Below, piece by piece: positions 25,104-44,076 of a stretch of DNA of 64,000 bases. This DNA comes from Arboricoccus pini (GTDB taxonomy: Bacteria; Pseudomonadota; Alphaproteobacteria; Geminicoccales; Geminicoccaceae), in NCBI RefSeq assembly GCF_900187945.1, contig NZ_FYEH01000006.1, forward strand, positions 186,001 through 250,000. The letters run 5' to 3'. The notes under the pieces were generated by a model. That model was given only the letters and a program-made list of their open reading frames with translations. It did not search any database and was not told the DNA's origin. The position numbers and the translations under genes are program-made. Within the stretch, counting starts at the first letter, position 1. Each line of letters starts with the position of its first letter.

Positions 25104-25178
25104 GCGGGCGTAGCTCAGGGGTAGAGCACAACCTTGCCAAGGTTGGGGTCGAGGGTTCGAATCCCTTCGCCCGCTCCA
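25104..25178 (+). tRNA. tRNA-Gly (anticodon GCC)
   Basis: A complete cloverleaf. Acceptor stem GCGGGCG (25104-25110) pairs with CGCCCGC (25168-25174). The D arm is GCTC..GAGC. The anticodon arm AACCT-TGCCAAG-GTT holds the loop TTGCCAA with anticodon GCC. The T arm is AGGGTTCGAATCCCT, the discriminator is T and an encoded CCA ends at 25178. It directly precedes the accessory stretch, a common position for integration of mobile elements. Glycine codons GGC/GGT would be read. Confidence 0.97.
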
Positions 25179-25210
25179 AATTTCCATCAGAAATCAGAGC
25201 GATATAGACA

Positions 25211-25228
25211 GCCCATCGGGCCGTTTTT
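25211..25228 (+). terminator. Likely rho-independent terminator of tRNA-Gly
   Basis: GCCC-ATC-GGGC stem-loop followed by CCG and five Ts, about 33 bases after the tRNA. The stem is only four pairs, so strength is uncertain, but position and T-run fit a tRNA terminator. Confidence 0.5.
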
Positions 25229-25274
25229 GCTTACCCAAGCCCATTCCAAATTCTGGGTAAGCAAAAGGTAAGCA
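25227..25274. repeat. Inverted and direct repeats just downstream of tRNA-Gly
   Basis: TTGCTTACCCA at 25227-25237 and TGGGTAAGCAA at 25254-25264 form a perfect 11-base inverted repeat around a 16-base loop. GGTAAGCA then repeats directly at 25256-25263 and 25267-25274. Repeats like these beside a tRNA resemble recombinase arm or core sites of integrative elements, but no integrase gene is present, so this is inference. Confidence 0.6.
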
Positions 25275-25380
25275 GGCGGTGATTGACTCCGCTAGTCGGG
25301 CGCCAGCGGGCTGGCAATGCCCCGTGGTCTTCCGCATGAGCAAAGCTCGCCTGCTAAGATCAACGCGATAACCAGGGCCA

Positions 25381-25404
25381 CCGCGGGCGCCCGGTTGCCC
25401 GCGG
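25381..25404. repeat. Perfect 8-base inverted repeat
   Basis: CCGCGGGC (25381-25388) and GCCCGCGG (25397-25404) around an 8-base loop. There is no T-run on either side. It lies between the tRNA and the LysR remnant in a segment with no recognisable gene. Confidence 0.6.
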
Positions 25405-25453
25405 AACGCTAAGGAACGAAAAGCCGAGCGGTGCTGCGTCGGGCCAACCAGCG

Positions 25454-25733
25454 TCAAGACATGCGGCCGTGCTGCGCCAGATGATCGAGAAGCACTCGAA
25501 CCCAAACCGGGAGGATGCGGGCTGGTACCACAAAGACGGCATCGAACGGCTCGCGGCCGTCGGCTGACTGGGTCCGAGCCGGGCGGGCGGCCGAAAGATC
25601 ATCGCGCACGGAGAGCTCCGCGACATAGGCCGGTCCCAAATCCAAGCGTGAGGCGGAACGTTTAGCCGCCGTTGATTCGGAAGCAGTGACCTAGACACGG
25701 CACAGGACATGGTCGACATAGCCTGCTGAACTA
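25454..25733 (-). pseudogene. Deleted partial copy of a LysR-type regulator
   Basis: A broken copy of the C-terminal part of the intact LysR gene at 26978-27844. The reading frame ending at 25454 gives GREPFDAVFVVPARILPVWV and LLDHLAQHGRMS, nearly matching REPFHAVFVGPARILPVRV and LLDHLAEHGRVS of the intact gene. The DNA similarity continues to about 25676, then jumps: CACGGCACAGGACATGG (about 25697) corresponds to bases roughly 280 further along in the intact copy. An internal segment is therefore deleted, and the DNA-binding N-terminus is missing. It cannot make a functional regulator. Confidence 0.8.
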
Positions 25734-25734
25734 A

Positions 25735-25758
25735 GGCCCGAAATCGTCGTTTCGGGCC
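25735..25758. repeat. Perfect 9-base hairpin at the edge of the LysR remnant
   Basis: GGCCCGAAA (25735-25743), loop TCGTCG, TTTCGGGCC (25750-25758). It begins where similarity to the intact LysR gene stops. No T-run follows on either strand, so it is not an obvious terminator. It may mark a recombination or transposition breakpoint. Confidence 0.65.
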
Positions 25759-25959
25759 AAAAGTGTATGTCCACCGGAAAGGCCGACAATCCAGATTGCG
25801 CCACCGCGCCCGACCATCCTCCGTGGCCATCTGCATTACCGAACTTCGAGCATCTGAATCGTTCGTGCCTCCGGCCGTCCGGTTGCAGCCAGAGTCACGT
25901 ATTTCAAGGATGTCGACGGCGCACAGAGCGTGGCGACATGTTCTCCTAGATGTTCATGA

Positions 25960-26293: not shown

Positions 26294-26800
26294 TCAGGCG
26301 CCGAAGCCGCCATCGATGGTGTGCATCGCATCTGTGATACCACGCGCCCGCGACCTGGCGAGATAGAGGACGAGGCTGGCAACCTCATCGGCGATGCCGT
26401 GGCGCCTGATAGCCATGATGCTATGCATCGCGGCCACTAGAGGGCCACCTGCCGCATTCATGTCAGTGTCGGTAGAATTCCGGCTGAACAACGCACACAG
26501 TGATGCCTCGCGCGCCGAAACTCAGGCCATTCCTTGTAGGGCAGATTTGCTCATCGCGTAAGACGCAAATCCCTCGAAAGGCATGCGCTCGCCATTGACC
26601 GGACCGATGATGAGGATCCAACAACCAGCGGGCATGTTCCGGGAGGATTCGCCGCTAGGTGGTAGTGACGACGGCGGCCTTCTGCTCGATACTCTTGGTG
26701 CGACCTCGTTCCCATGTGTCATCGTGATCTTGATGACTGCAACGCTTGGCAGTTGCCTGGTCTGCCAGCGCACACGGCTTTCCAGCCAATGCGCGACAGA
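26294..26800 (-). pseudogene. Decayed short-chain dehydrogenase/reductase gene
   Basis: Pieces of one SDR lie in different frames on the minus strand. Near 26800 is a Rossmann-like remnant (SRIGWKAVCA). It is followed in another frame by VAVIKITMTHGNEV, and then by NMPAGCWILIIGPVNGERMP and the catalytic YAMSK in FASYAMSKSALQGMA, which stops at 26522. The C-terminus reappears in another frame as TDTDMNAAGGPLVAAMHSI and ends TDAMHTIDGGFGA at 26294. The middle of the protein, with the NAG motif and the catalytic Ser, is missing. At least two frame changes plus an internal deletion make this a pseudogene. It was probably an FabG-like reductase. Confidence 0.8.
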
Positions 26801-26977
26801 TGCGTTGATTTATTAGGCGTCGTCACACCTATTTCGAGGTCTCCGCCATTGCCAAAAGGCGTCGCTGGCGGCGTTCGTCTTCCCTTAGATCCGGATTTAG
26901 ATCGGGGCCGTCCAGAGCACTGGATGCCTGGCGGAACGCCGAAAGGGGCTGTCATGCGAACGCTGGATCACCCGACG

Positions 26978-27844
26978 TCACGACACGCGGCCATGCTCTG
27001 CCAGATGATCGAGTAGCACACGCACCCGGACCGGGAGGATGCGGGCCGGACCCACGAACACGGCGTGGAACGGCTCGCGCGCGCCGGTTGACCCGGTTCG
27101 GATTTCGGCAAGGCGACCGGCCGAGAGATCGTGACGTACCGTGAACTCCGCGACACGTGCCGGTCCCAGACCGGCCAGTGCGAGAAGCCGGACTCCTTCG
27201 CCATCGCTGATCCGGAAGCGTTGCTTCCCACCGCCATCGGATGACTGCCAGGGATCGCTCTTGCGCGGATAGGTGAAACCGATCGACGGGGTGGCAACCC
27301 CGGGCTCGTCATATCGGGCAAGCCAGTCAGGGGCCGCCACCTCAATGATGCGGGTCTCGCCCAACGAGCGGGCGATAAGATCCGCGTCCGCCATCGGGCC
27401 CGCGCGGATGGCGATGTCAATCGGCTCCTTCACCAGATCGACCACCGCATCCTGCTGGACGATGTCGATGGCGATTGCGGGATAGCGCTGCGCAAAGCTG
27501 GGCAAGATACGGCACAGGACATGGGCGACATAGCTGGCGGAACTGCTGATCCGCACCCGCCCGGTTGGCTCCGCGGCACTGGCCGCCTCGCGTTCCGCGG
27601 TTTCGAGGTCGGCGAGAATCGCGCATGCCCGGGCATGAAAGCTGCAACCTTCATCGGTCAGACTGAAGCGCCGCGTCGAGCGGCGCAAAAGTTGGACGCC
27701 GAGCCGCCGCTCCAGCCGGGCAATGGTGCGGCTCGCCGCCGACGGAACGATGCCCAGAGTCCGCCCCCCTGCCGCGATACTTCCCGCTTCCACGGTCGCG
27801 ATGAAAACTTCCAGTTCTCCCAGCCGATCAGGGCGTCGCGGCAT
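26978..27844 (-). CDS. LysR-family transcriptional regulator
   Basis: DNA-binding regulator of 288 aa. The N-terminal winged helix-turn-helix (residues about 8-66) reads LGELEVFIATVEAGSIAAGG and SAASRTIARLERRLGVQLL. The periplasmic-binding-like effector domain follows (GRVRISSSASYVAHVLCRIL) and ends RILPVRVRVLLDHLAEHG. It is divergent from the PRISE-type reductase gene across 100 bases, the usual arrangement for a LysR regulator and its target, so that reductase is the likely target. The former SDR/EthD genes downstream could also have been. A truncated second copy lies at 25454-25733. Confidence 0.9.
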   Translation of the reverse strand: MPRRPDRLGELEVFIATVEAGSIAAGGRTLGIVPSAASRTIARLERRLGVQLLRRSTRRFSLTDEGCSFHARACAILADLETAEREAASAAEPTGRVRISSSASYVAHVLCRILPSFAQRYPAIAIDIVQQDAVVDLVKEPIDIAIRAGPMADADLIARSLGETRIIEVAAPDWLARYDEPGVATPSIGFTYPRKSDPWQSSDGGGKQRFRISDGEGVRLLALAGLGPARVAEFTVRHDLSAGRLAEIRTGSTGAREPFHAVFVGPARILPVRVRVLLDHLAEHGRVS

Positions 27845-29782: not shown

Positions 29783-30150
29783 GACGGCCAGCCCCGCGCG
29801 GGCGGATTGCCTCGATGGCTGTGCCTCTTCAGCGCCGAGCCGCACATGATCGCCACGGGCAACGCCTCGCAACGGAGGATCGCCTGCTCTGGTCACTGGC
29901 AAGCGGCCTGCCGCGCCGCGCCATCGCCCAAGAATACGGCGGAGCGCATGGGCCGGGAGTGCCGCCCCGGAGGAAATTGCCGCTATCGGCAGACGGACCT
30001 CGGCGAAGGCCGCCCCTTGAGGCGTTCGAAGCGACCACGCAAATCGACTGCGTCTACAGGACGGCAATCAAACGCACCACCCTCAAGCTGCGCAACGGCG
30101 GGAACTGACACATGGATGGATGAACGATCCTGCATCCACGTTTTCATCGA
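29783..30150. other. Stretch without a supportable gene; possible HTH remnant
   Basis: About 370 bases. The plus-strand frame around 29815-30108 contains EDRLLWSLASGLPRRAIAQE, which resembles the start of a small helix-turn-helix protein, but the rest of the frame loses this character. It may be a frameshifted remnant. No repeats or RNA genes were seen. Confidence 0.35.
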
Positions 30151-30255
30151 CTAGAAGCGACATGACAACCTGCAAAACCTTGCGTTCGGTCCTGCTCGTT
30201 GCTGTCGTCGGAGCCAGCCGTCCTTCCGCCTTACGCGGTCGTGAAGTTCGGTCAT
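30151..30255 (-). pseudogene. 34-codon frame with a consensus ribosome-binding site (5' gene remnant or leader peptide)
   Basis: ATG at 30255 preceded by GGAGGAGAA (complement of 30261-30269), one of the best ribosome-binding sites in the window. The frame then runs only 34 codons, starting MTELHDRVRRKDGWLRRQQR, before TAG at 30151. Such a strong initiation site on such a short frame suggests the preserved 5' end of a truncated gene. A leader peptide is possible, but nothing downstream on this strand would be controlled by it. Confidence 0.4.
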
Positions 30256-30301
30256 GTTATTTCTCCTCCGCCGCAAGACCTATCTTATCTACAGCCGCAT
30301 G

Positions 30302-30454
30302 TCAGTTTGTGATGTAGCGACCGTCCACAGCCTGCCTTTGGGAAAGCGATTTGGCGCTATTAGTAAGCTTCTTATAGGCTGTCGCTAGGTCACAAAACTC
30401 ATCCGCCGAATTCCCATTTCCGACGCCAGAAAAGTACCCCCTACTCGTCCCCAT
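30302..30454 (-). CDS. Small hypothetical protein (50 aa) overlapping the upstream gene
   Basis: I do not recognise this protein. It starts at ATG 30454 inside the last codons of the 82-aa gene (14-base overlap) and runs 50 codons to TGA at 30302. Its N-terminus is MGTSRGYFSGVGNGNSADEF, followed by a probable helix (CDLATAYKKLTNSAKSLSQ). The composition is that of a soluble helical protein rather than random out-of-frame translation. The overlap suggests translational coupling with its partner. A two-gene unit of small proteins in an accessory region recalls toxin-antitoxin or phage/plasmid modules, but I see no family motif that proves this. Confidence 0.5.
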   Translation of the reverse strand: MGTSRGYFSGVGNGNSADEFCDLATAYKKLTNSAKSLSQRQAVDGRYITN

Positions 30455-30689
30455 AAGACCGCTTTGCTTCGATCTTCGCGTACCGGTCGGCGACCATGCG
30501 CCTCAGTAATTCAGTATTATCGATGCCCAAGCGAGCACGCAAAAGAGCTATCTGCTCGATTGTCTCTTGCGCCGGATAGGCGCCGATGTGCTTGCCTCTC
30601 GGTTTGGCTATCGGTTTCGCGACCGGCGCGACTTCTGTTTTCTCCGCCGTCTTAGGCTCTGATGCGAAAGTGGGCTTAGGCTCCCTCAC
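30441..30689 (-). CDS. Hypothetical 82-aa protein with a C-terminal helical (RHH-like) segment
   Basis: Not a family I can name. It starts at GTG 30689; no ATG lies upstream in frame before a stop at 30774-30776, and the frame upstream of the GTG is also open (AKPKVNPFLAVLGV), so the start is uncertain. The first 35 residues are rich in Pro, Lys and Ala and look disordered (VAPVAKPIAKPRGKHIGAYP). The second half, QETIEQIALLRARLGIDNTE followed by LLRRMVADRYAKIE, looks like two helices with a turn, in the manner of ribbon-helix-helix or small HTH proteins. It overlaps the 50-aa gene, probably in one transcript. Confidence 0.6.
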   Translation of the reverse strand: MREPKPTFASEPKTAEKTEVAPVAKPIAKPRGKHIGAYPAQETIEQIALLRARLGIDNTELLRRMVADRYAKIEAKRSYGDE

Positions 30690-31004
30690 GCCCAGGACCG
30701 CCAGGAACGGATTTACCTTAGGCTTCGCTCTTGCAAGTATAGCTTTGACCTTATGTGCACGTGTGCCCCAGTGCTAAGACCCACTTATGCGGATATGCAC
30801 ACCTCAGCTGCTGCGGAGAAATGAGGCCGCCCGACCGGCGAAAGAGCAATGCCGATAGCCGTAAGGCGGCCTAATCAAGCACCTTGGCAGCCCAGGAACA
30901 AAGAACTCTACTCATAAAAACGCGTCGGGAGTTTATGAGGAGCGACAAGCCAAGAATGGCTGATTATATGTTGATGTGTTCTTAATAATTTAGGGCTCAT
31001 CAAG
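30690..31004. other. AT-richer divergent intergenic region with an inverted repeat
   Basis: About 315 bases between divergent small genes, visibly less GC-rich than the surroundings. AGGCCGCC (30824-30831) and GGCGGCCT (30865-30872) form a perfect 8-base inverted repeat. The last 60 bases before 31005 are A/T-rich and could hold the promoter of the next gene. A 16-codon frame starting MRSDKPRMADYMLMCS ends just before it and might be a leader, but this is weak. Confidence 0.4.
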
Positions 31005-31373
31005 ATGATTCATGGATTTACCTTCGAACCGAGCGACCCACAAGAACACGGCGAATTCGTCACCTGTAATGGAACGCTAGATAGCCCCCTACGAATCGAA
31101 GGAATAAATCGGGAACTCGATTTTACTTTCCGGAAAGGCGACAGACGTGTGGTGACCAGAGTAACACTCGGGCGCGTGCGGGTAGACGTGACGCTTCCAG
31201 ACGACGAATTCGAAGAAGTCAATGAGCGCGTCCGAGCCCCGAACGGGCTGCCTTTGCGCGCAGCTGTGATGAATGTCATCGACACTCAGCCTTATGATAG
31301 AGCGCTACGGACGGTGCCTCCTGGGGAGCCTGAGATCGACAATATTCGCACGCTGACAGCCCCATCTAAATGA
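31005..31373 (+). CDS. Hypothetical protein (122 aa)
   Basis: I cannot assign this protein to a family. It is acidic to neutral and beta-rich in appearance, with HGFTFEPSDPQEHGEFVTCN, then DFTFRKGDRRVVTRVTLGRV and VDVTLPDDEFEEVNERVRAP. The alternating pattern suggests a small beta-barrel or sandwich. There is no signal peptide or membrane segment. Codon and base composition are closer to neutral than in neighbouring housekeeping genes, consistent with recent acquisition. The ATG at 31005 has only a weak AGGG about nine bases upstream. It is flanked by other orphan genes. Confidence 0.6.
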   Translation: MIHGFTFEPSDPQEHGEFVTCNGTLDSPLRIEGINRELDFTFRKGDRRVVTRVTLGRVRVDVTLPDDEFEEVNERVRAPNGLPLRAAVMNVIDTQPYDRALRTVPPGEPEIDNIRTLTAPSK

Positions 31374-43245: not shown

Positions 43246-44076
43246 TCAGCGTTCCGTTCGTCCGTCAGTGTCTCTTGAAGTGACGGATTGATGACTAGCA
43301 CGAATCAGGCCGATTTCGCCAAGTCGATCAAGAATCTGGGCGGCCGCGGTCTCGGGATCGGGATCGACGAGCAGCCGACCTTTGGCCTCGCCCCCGCCCG
43401 TCATGCTCTTCAGCCTGTCGATGGCGCTGCCCTTGAGGCGCCGGGGCTGCGGTCGTGGCAGTTGGCGCCAGGGCTGGCGCTCGATGGCCACCAGATGCGG
43501 ATCGGGTGATGCAAGGGCGGGCAGGGAGACAATGCGGCCTCGCCGTGCGGCCGCGAACGAGGGTAGGGGCAGGCCAGCGGTACCGGCCGGGATCGTAGCT
43601 GCAAGCGGCAACCGGGCCTCAATCTGACGTCGGCGTCCGCGCGGCAATGCCTGGGTGAAGCGGCCCTGGTCTCCTTGGAGGTCCAGGCCGACCACGCCCG
43701 GCACCAGCGTCATGCCCAGCGCCTCGGCCAGCAGATAGGGCAAAAGCCCGCTGGCCTCGCCATTCTCCGCCCTCTGGCCGGTCAGGAGCAGGTCCGGTGA
43801 TAGGGCGACCAGATGCTCACGCAAGGATGGTAGCGGATCACTGCCTGACGGCATATCGAGGACGGTGAGTTCGTCCAGTCCCTGGCCCAGATAATCGCGG
43901 AGTACTGGCGCCCTCGGATCGCCCGCATGCACCGCCAGCACGCGGCTGCCGGACCGCGTTGCCGCCAGGGCCAGCGCCGTCGCGAGTGCTCGGGCGTCGT
44001 CCGGATTGCGGCGCGGCCTGCCGGTCGCCGGATGGCGGCCAAGCGAAAGGAGCACGACGATGGCAAGGCCGGTCAT
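43246..44076 (-). CDS. etfB: Electron transfer flavoprotein beta subunit (dimethylglycine catabolism)
   Basis: Beta subunit of an electron-transfer flavoprotein that accepts electrons from the dimethylglycine-demethylating enzyme. It has 276 aa in the ETF-beta fold: an N-terminal strand-helix (GLAIVVLLSLGRH), the AMP-binding-like region, LLTGQRAENGEASGLLPYLLAEALGM (the ETF signature area) and a C-terminal arm. Its ATG overlaps the etfA stop as ATGA. Gene order dgcA-dgcB-etfA-etfB is the same as in Pseudomonas glycine-betaine catabolic clusters, which supports the dedicated role. It is the last gene before the terminator. Confidence 0.85.
   Translation of the reverse strand: MTGLAIVVLLSLGRHPATGRPRRNPDDARALATALALAATRSGSRVLAVHAGDPRAPVLRDYLGQGLDELTVLDMPSGSDPLPSLREHLVALSPDLLLTGQRAENGEASGLLPYLLAEALGMTLVPGVVGLDLQGDQGRFTQALPRGRRRQIEARLPLAATIPAGTAGLPLPSFAAARRGRIVSLPALASPDPHLVAIERQPWRQLPRPQPRRLKGSAIDRLKSMTGGGEAKGRLLVDPDPETAAAQILDRLGEIGLIRASHQSVTSRDTDGRTER

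Follow-up and report, generated by a model that had tools for sequence, protein, structure and literature searches.

The window, i.e. the whole 64-kb stretch of Arboricoccus pini DNA analysed here, belongs to a contig of 294,770 bp (C8) and encodes accA, ftsK and lolA. Its minus strand carries an 82-codon ORF with a GTG start (30441-30689) and a 50-codon ORF with an ATG start (30302-30454), which share 14 bases. The frame of the 82-codon ORF extends open to 30773 (110 codons), and the ORF itself is the portion, from GTG 30689 onward, of a 99-codon frame on the same strand (30441-30740, from the ATA at 30738-30740 to the stop) that is an orphan relative of a ParA-partner protein. A degenerate tandem array of six 8-bp units lies just upstream of the orphan (30753-30800, minus strand). 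A sequence-only reading of this DNA had described the two ORFs as an overlapping pair of small genes in a degraded island, possibly a toxin-antitoxin, anti-defence or partition module. The ORFs, their lengths and their overlap are as described; the gene pair does not stand, since the 50-codon frame behaves at chance level.

The 50-codon frame and its surroundings

The window holds 441 ORFs of at least 50 aa (6.9 per kb); when 29801-30800 was resampled 2,000 times (first order), such an ORF turned up on a given strand in 1,958 cases. The codon log-odds against shadow frames are -0.035 per codon for the 50-codon frame and +0.10 for the 82-codon frame, to be compared with 0.22-0.46 for nine clear genes that are themselves the training set. 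When the 66-codon stop-to-stop frame was compared by tblastn with 36 relative loci, the best match had an E of 4.4; among the other 30 family genomes, the top match to the 50-codon frame (E 0.012) spans two stops. ORFs beginning in the last 40 nt of the ribbon-helix-helix (RHH) gene of 37 relatives range from 1 to 320 codons, the longest resembling a replication gene by eye, and have no common sequence beyond near-duplicate loci. Neither Pfam nor PADLOC yielded a match to the 50-codon frame (PADLOC returned no family at E up to 1 for either frame), and the PHROGs match is at chance level (E 0.15). We conclude that the 50-codon ORF looks like a chance reading frame (unsupported as a gene), and the expected conservation of a second overlapping gene was contradicted by the 36 loci searched with tblastn as well as by the 37 sets of ORFs at the RHH gene end. 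The sequence-only reading had itself named the lack of a 50-aa homologue beside the 82-aa gene as evidence against the pair, and this lack is what the examined loci show.

The gene lolA is present in 30 of 31 genomes of the family; this, the size of the contig and the genes accA and ftsK speak for a chromosomal setting. In 11 family loci that were opened downstream of it the content, judged by eye from the ORFs, varies between genomes, thus the orphan sits in a variable stretch. The tRNA-Gly gene at 25104-25178 was considered as the attachment site of an island and rejected: its last 20 bases are single-copy in the window and no second boundary was found. An ORF of 122 aa and unknown family on the plus strand (31005-31373) has one weak relative (E 4e-4) in the 30 other family genomes; having neither a plasmid match nor any tie to the orphan that we could find, it was not retained as part of the feature. 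Two further stretches of the minus strand are worth recording. By eye, the ORF at 25194-25836 is similar to the C-terminal portion of an intact LysR-type regulator (26978-27844), of which it looks like a decayed duplicate. A fragment at 26294-26816, whose match is to a short-chain dehydrogenase (PF13561) in its C-terminal part, is probably a broken gene.

Plasmid relatives of the 82-codon frame

The 82-codon frame is homologous, as judged by sequence comparison, to a small, probable RHH protein encoded beside a ParA ATPase. With a hmmsearch profile built from 10 relatives, the window excluded, the window frame is the sole match among 1540 frames (71.2 bits, E 7e-21); the window thus carries a partner homologous to the plasmid partners. 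The window protein matches one further site in its own genome, on contig C4 (44% identity), and 12 plasmid records, of which 11 regions were opened, all 11 from Alphaproteobacteria. Additional relatives were found in 24 genome contigs and two contigs of the viral collection. The phage-collection record MT838365 matches with an E of 9e-12; queried with the window protein alone, the viral collection gave no match. The 11 opened plasmid regions, the 24 genome contigs, the two contigs of the viral collection and the C4 locus make 38 loci, near-duplicates included, many of them plasmids.

In 38 of 38 loci the RHH gene starts close to the end of a ParA-like frame, which falls between 8 bases inside that gene and 70 bases ahead of it, and the KGGxGKS motif is present in the ParA frame examined in 33 of them; at one locus (L031) the ParA frame is partial only. 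A ParA beside its partner, with a deviant Walker A, characterizes type Ib; such a ParA occurs in all 38 relatives, the motif being read in 33, and is missing from the window, where tblastn with nine ParA proteins gave scattered matches (best E 0.13, none adjacent) and a ParA profile search with filters off gave a best E of 0.55, not adjacent to the orphan.

Contig C4 (locus L052; 10,352 bp) has ends that are identical over 95 bp and is therefore probably a circular plasmid of about 10 kb. It encodes a RepA (PF10134, E 2.6e-86), the ParA-RHH pair, a resolvase, a BsuBI/PstI-type restriction enzyme, a methylase and an AAA ATPase; one protein of C4 has a match to the impB/mucB/samB C-terminal domain. 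When 18 proteins of C4 and of the relative plasmids were compared with the window, one weak and distant match was obtained (E 0.006, 43433-43585). As the window holds no other plasmid gene that we could find, a plasmid integration there is putative.

No relative of the orphan was found in the 30 other genomes of the family. An order-wide search in which all candidates were scored gave a match in one of 31 genomes, the window's own, and a class-wide search likewise in one of 385, again the window's own, the latter being a weak negative with at most 12 candidates scored per genome.

The closest parallels are the alphaproteobacterial plasmid pairs of ParA and a small hypothetical protein (CP113521, NZ_KM659096, NZ_CP023191, NC_006675), with which the homology covers the whole length and the iterons occupy the same place; in contrast to them, the window copy, which lies on a chromosomal contig, has neither parA, nor the upstream array, nor the start codon. 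The type Ib systems ParF-ParG of TP228 and delta-omega of pSM19035 likewise combine a ParA ATPase, short centromere repeats and a small partner with a flexible N-terminal tail (PMC5016525, PMC9499535), which is of RHH type in them and probably so in the relatives. The relatives described here differ from both in that 8-bp GTGCANNN iterons are found both upstream of parA and within its 3' end, and they have no sequence match to the solved RHH partition proteins. The class Ib PAR module of Paracoccus pMARC3 also consists of ParA and a small ParB on a small alphaproteobacterial plasmid (PMC3832669); the likeness is one of description, and pMARC3 differs by its three 13-bp repeats in the parA promoter (PMC3832669).

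Members of the ParA-partner family are mostly annotated as hypothetical protein, and in the libraries searched the family is matched by generic RHH models only. Literature searches covering partition by RHH proteins and ParA, ParG, incompatibility and orphaned partition genes listed nothing about it, as judged by titles and the opening lines of abstracts.

Start site, iterons and predicted fold of the orphan

The homology of the 82-codon frame continues beyond GTG 30689, to about 30731, so the called GTG start truncates a conserved N-terminus; a start at this GTG would drop an N-terminal motif (the alignment's invariant Leu 13). In the alignment with C4 and the relatives, their ATG corresponds to AGA in the window (30729-30731, minus strand), the sequences being AGA GCG AAG CCT AAG GTA here and ATG GCA AAG CCG AAA GTG on contig C4. 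There is a length difference of about 2 nt immediately upstream of the AGA, and ATG, GTG and TTG are all absent in frame upstream of 30689 within the 110-codon open frame, thus the window copy does not constitute a translatable gene with its own start at the conserved site. From the sequence we noted a Shine-Dalgarno-like AAGG (30749-30752, minus strand) 8 nt upstream of ATA 30740; that this ATA may act as a rare AUA start codon is speculative. A scan for one promoter type found no sigma-70-like promoter for the orphan. A terminator-like hairpin with a T-rich tail, a weak consensus match, directly follows the RHH stop (30404-30425, minus strand), within the 50-codon frame.

Divergence is seen in the coding part as well. 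The window protein shares 44% overall identity with its nearest relative and keeps 17 of the 22 columns whose conservation among 32 relatives reaches 90% or more; this retention is the lowest of 33 members, and so is its profile score (74.8 bits, the next lowest being 77.2). Two of the changes, A82M and L86R, fall in the second helix. As the retention of conserved columns far exceeds the overall identity, the comparison suggests that the orphan frame was under selection for most of its history, and the gene may not be dead.

The iterons of the relatives are 8 bp long, with a consensus of about GTGCANNN, and in most relatives tandem units with a GCA core precede parA and recur at the parA/RHH junction. 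In some Paracoccus loci (L044, L045, L047 and L048) an array resumes immediately past the RHH stop, so that three arrays surround the par genes. The position of the window array (30753-30800) matches that of the relatives' junction array, and its units read, in order, GTGCATAT CCGCATAA GTGGGTCT TAGCACTG GGGCACAC GTGCACAT; GCA is present in five of these six and missing from one. With a matrix trained on 192 units from 32 relatives, the window left out, this array has the top score of the whole 64-kb window on both strands (30.3 bits, within the 19.3 to 50.9 bits of the relatives' junction arrays), and the next five scores all overlap it. Five units out of six with GCA were found nowhere else in the window on either strand at periods from 5 to 14. 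A pattern of the window site has one match in the 4.07-Mb genome and none in the control, which, the pattern being drawn from the site itself, shows rarity only. A strict four-unit pattern has three occurrences in the entire genome, each of them in C4 and around its par genes; its reversed control gave no match. The window thus possesses tandem short repeats as a putative centromere, and we regard the array, from its sequence and placement, as centromere-like iterons in a degenerate state.

In an AlphaFold2 monomer model based on 24 sequences, whose mean pLDDT is 69, confidence is low in the tail (until roughly residue 50) and high in two helices, at 58-71 and 75-95. The model contains no strand; the ribbon of RHH proteins is built from two molecules (PMC5016525). 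The two-helix model agrees with an RHH protein and does not prove one. The disordered Pro/Lys tail and the two-helix segment able to bind DNA that the sequence-only reading had seen in the first product both fit the 82-codon frame, with the low-confidence tail, the modelled helices and the homology to ParA partners. Against Pfam, the window protein matches RHH_1 at E 0.017, under the curated cut-off; at family level, with E up to 0.1, Antitox_RHH is matched by 21 of 24 members and RHH_1 by 11 of 24. Foldseek against the PDB gave no significant fold match (best E 3.5). The search of solved structures and RHH partition proteins by sequence gave no usable match, the best being 2kel, an RHH protein, at E 0.15-0.3. 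For the window protein itself, the assignment to RHH is therefore weak.

A proposed remnant of a partition locus and its alternatives

We propose that the feature is, very probably, what remains in the chromosome of a type Ib-like plasmid partition locus that has lost its motor, and in which the 50-codon frame has no part. The intact locus would have comprised a ParA-type ATPase followed by a small DNA-binding partner, plus arrays of 8-bp iterons. If the locus worked as ParG and omega do, dimers of the RHH protein would coat the tandem iterons and the RHH tail would stimulate ParA, whereby the plasmid copies would be moved over the nucleoid. A plasmid would then have integrated into, or recombined with, the chromosome, and parA would have been deleted subsequently, conceivably (this is a guess) between two direct iteron arrays. 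The partner gene would today be unexpressed, or made as a shortened protein. The partition module put forward by the sequence-only reading is thereby retained for the 82-codon frame, as a homologue of ParA partners, and dropped for the 50-codon frame, while the degraded island that it suggested would fit a locus without parA and without its start codon. The 110-codon frame that is still open and the 17 of 22 conserved columns that are kept count against a relic. Also weighing against the proposal are the weak RHH assignment and the lack of any other plasmid gene among the window's matches.

The open frame and the kept columns, with the retention of the adjoining array and the presence in the same genome of a plasmid contig whose iterons are alike, speak for a functional orphan, a DNA-binding protein made from GTG 30689 or ATA 30740 that binds its own array and perhaps those of the plasmid, in the role of a repressor or of a brake on the partition of plasmids (incompatibility). 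We consider this unlikely: the conserved position is without a standard start, no sigma-70-like promoter was found for the one type scanned, and both the profile score and the column retention are the lowest of the 33 members. The units of the array are also broken, with at most three consecutive GCA units, whereas stimulation of ParA by the pSM19035 system, which differs from that of the window, requires at least four contiguous repeats (PMC9499535). The more specific proposition that a motor-less centromere-binding protein and its array are kept as a brake on like plasmids, titrating or mis-tethering the ParA of a C4-like plasmid, is very unlikely.

Being the most diverged of the 33 members and having no ParA, the 82-codon frame might instead belong to an independent chromosomal RHH regulator that merely resembles the plasmid family; this is highly improbable given a homology that is full-length and includes the N-terminal tail motif, an iteron array placed as in the plasmid loci, and no homologue in the 30 other family genomes. 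A two-gene toxin-antitoxin or anti-defence module is scarcely credible: the frames are small and overlapping and the Antitox_RHH matches reflect a fold common to antitoxins, but the 50-codon frame is missing from all relatives examined, and nothing that Pfam, PHROGs and PADLOC gave for it rises above chance. The RHH protein has ParA as its neighbour at each of the 38 loci, models of toxins and defence proteins gave no match, and the sole antitoxin-like signal is that of a generic DNA-binding fold.

The chromosomal remnant itself is of modest interest. Through it a false gene pair is corrected, and a small "hypothetical" gene becomes nameable by its iterons and its missing partner. Were the brake on C4-like plasmids real, it would amount to partition incompatibility encoded by the chromosome. 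The ParA-partner family, whose neighbouring parA genes contain 8-bp GTGCANNN iterons at their 3' end, deserves a name.
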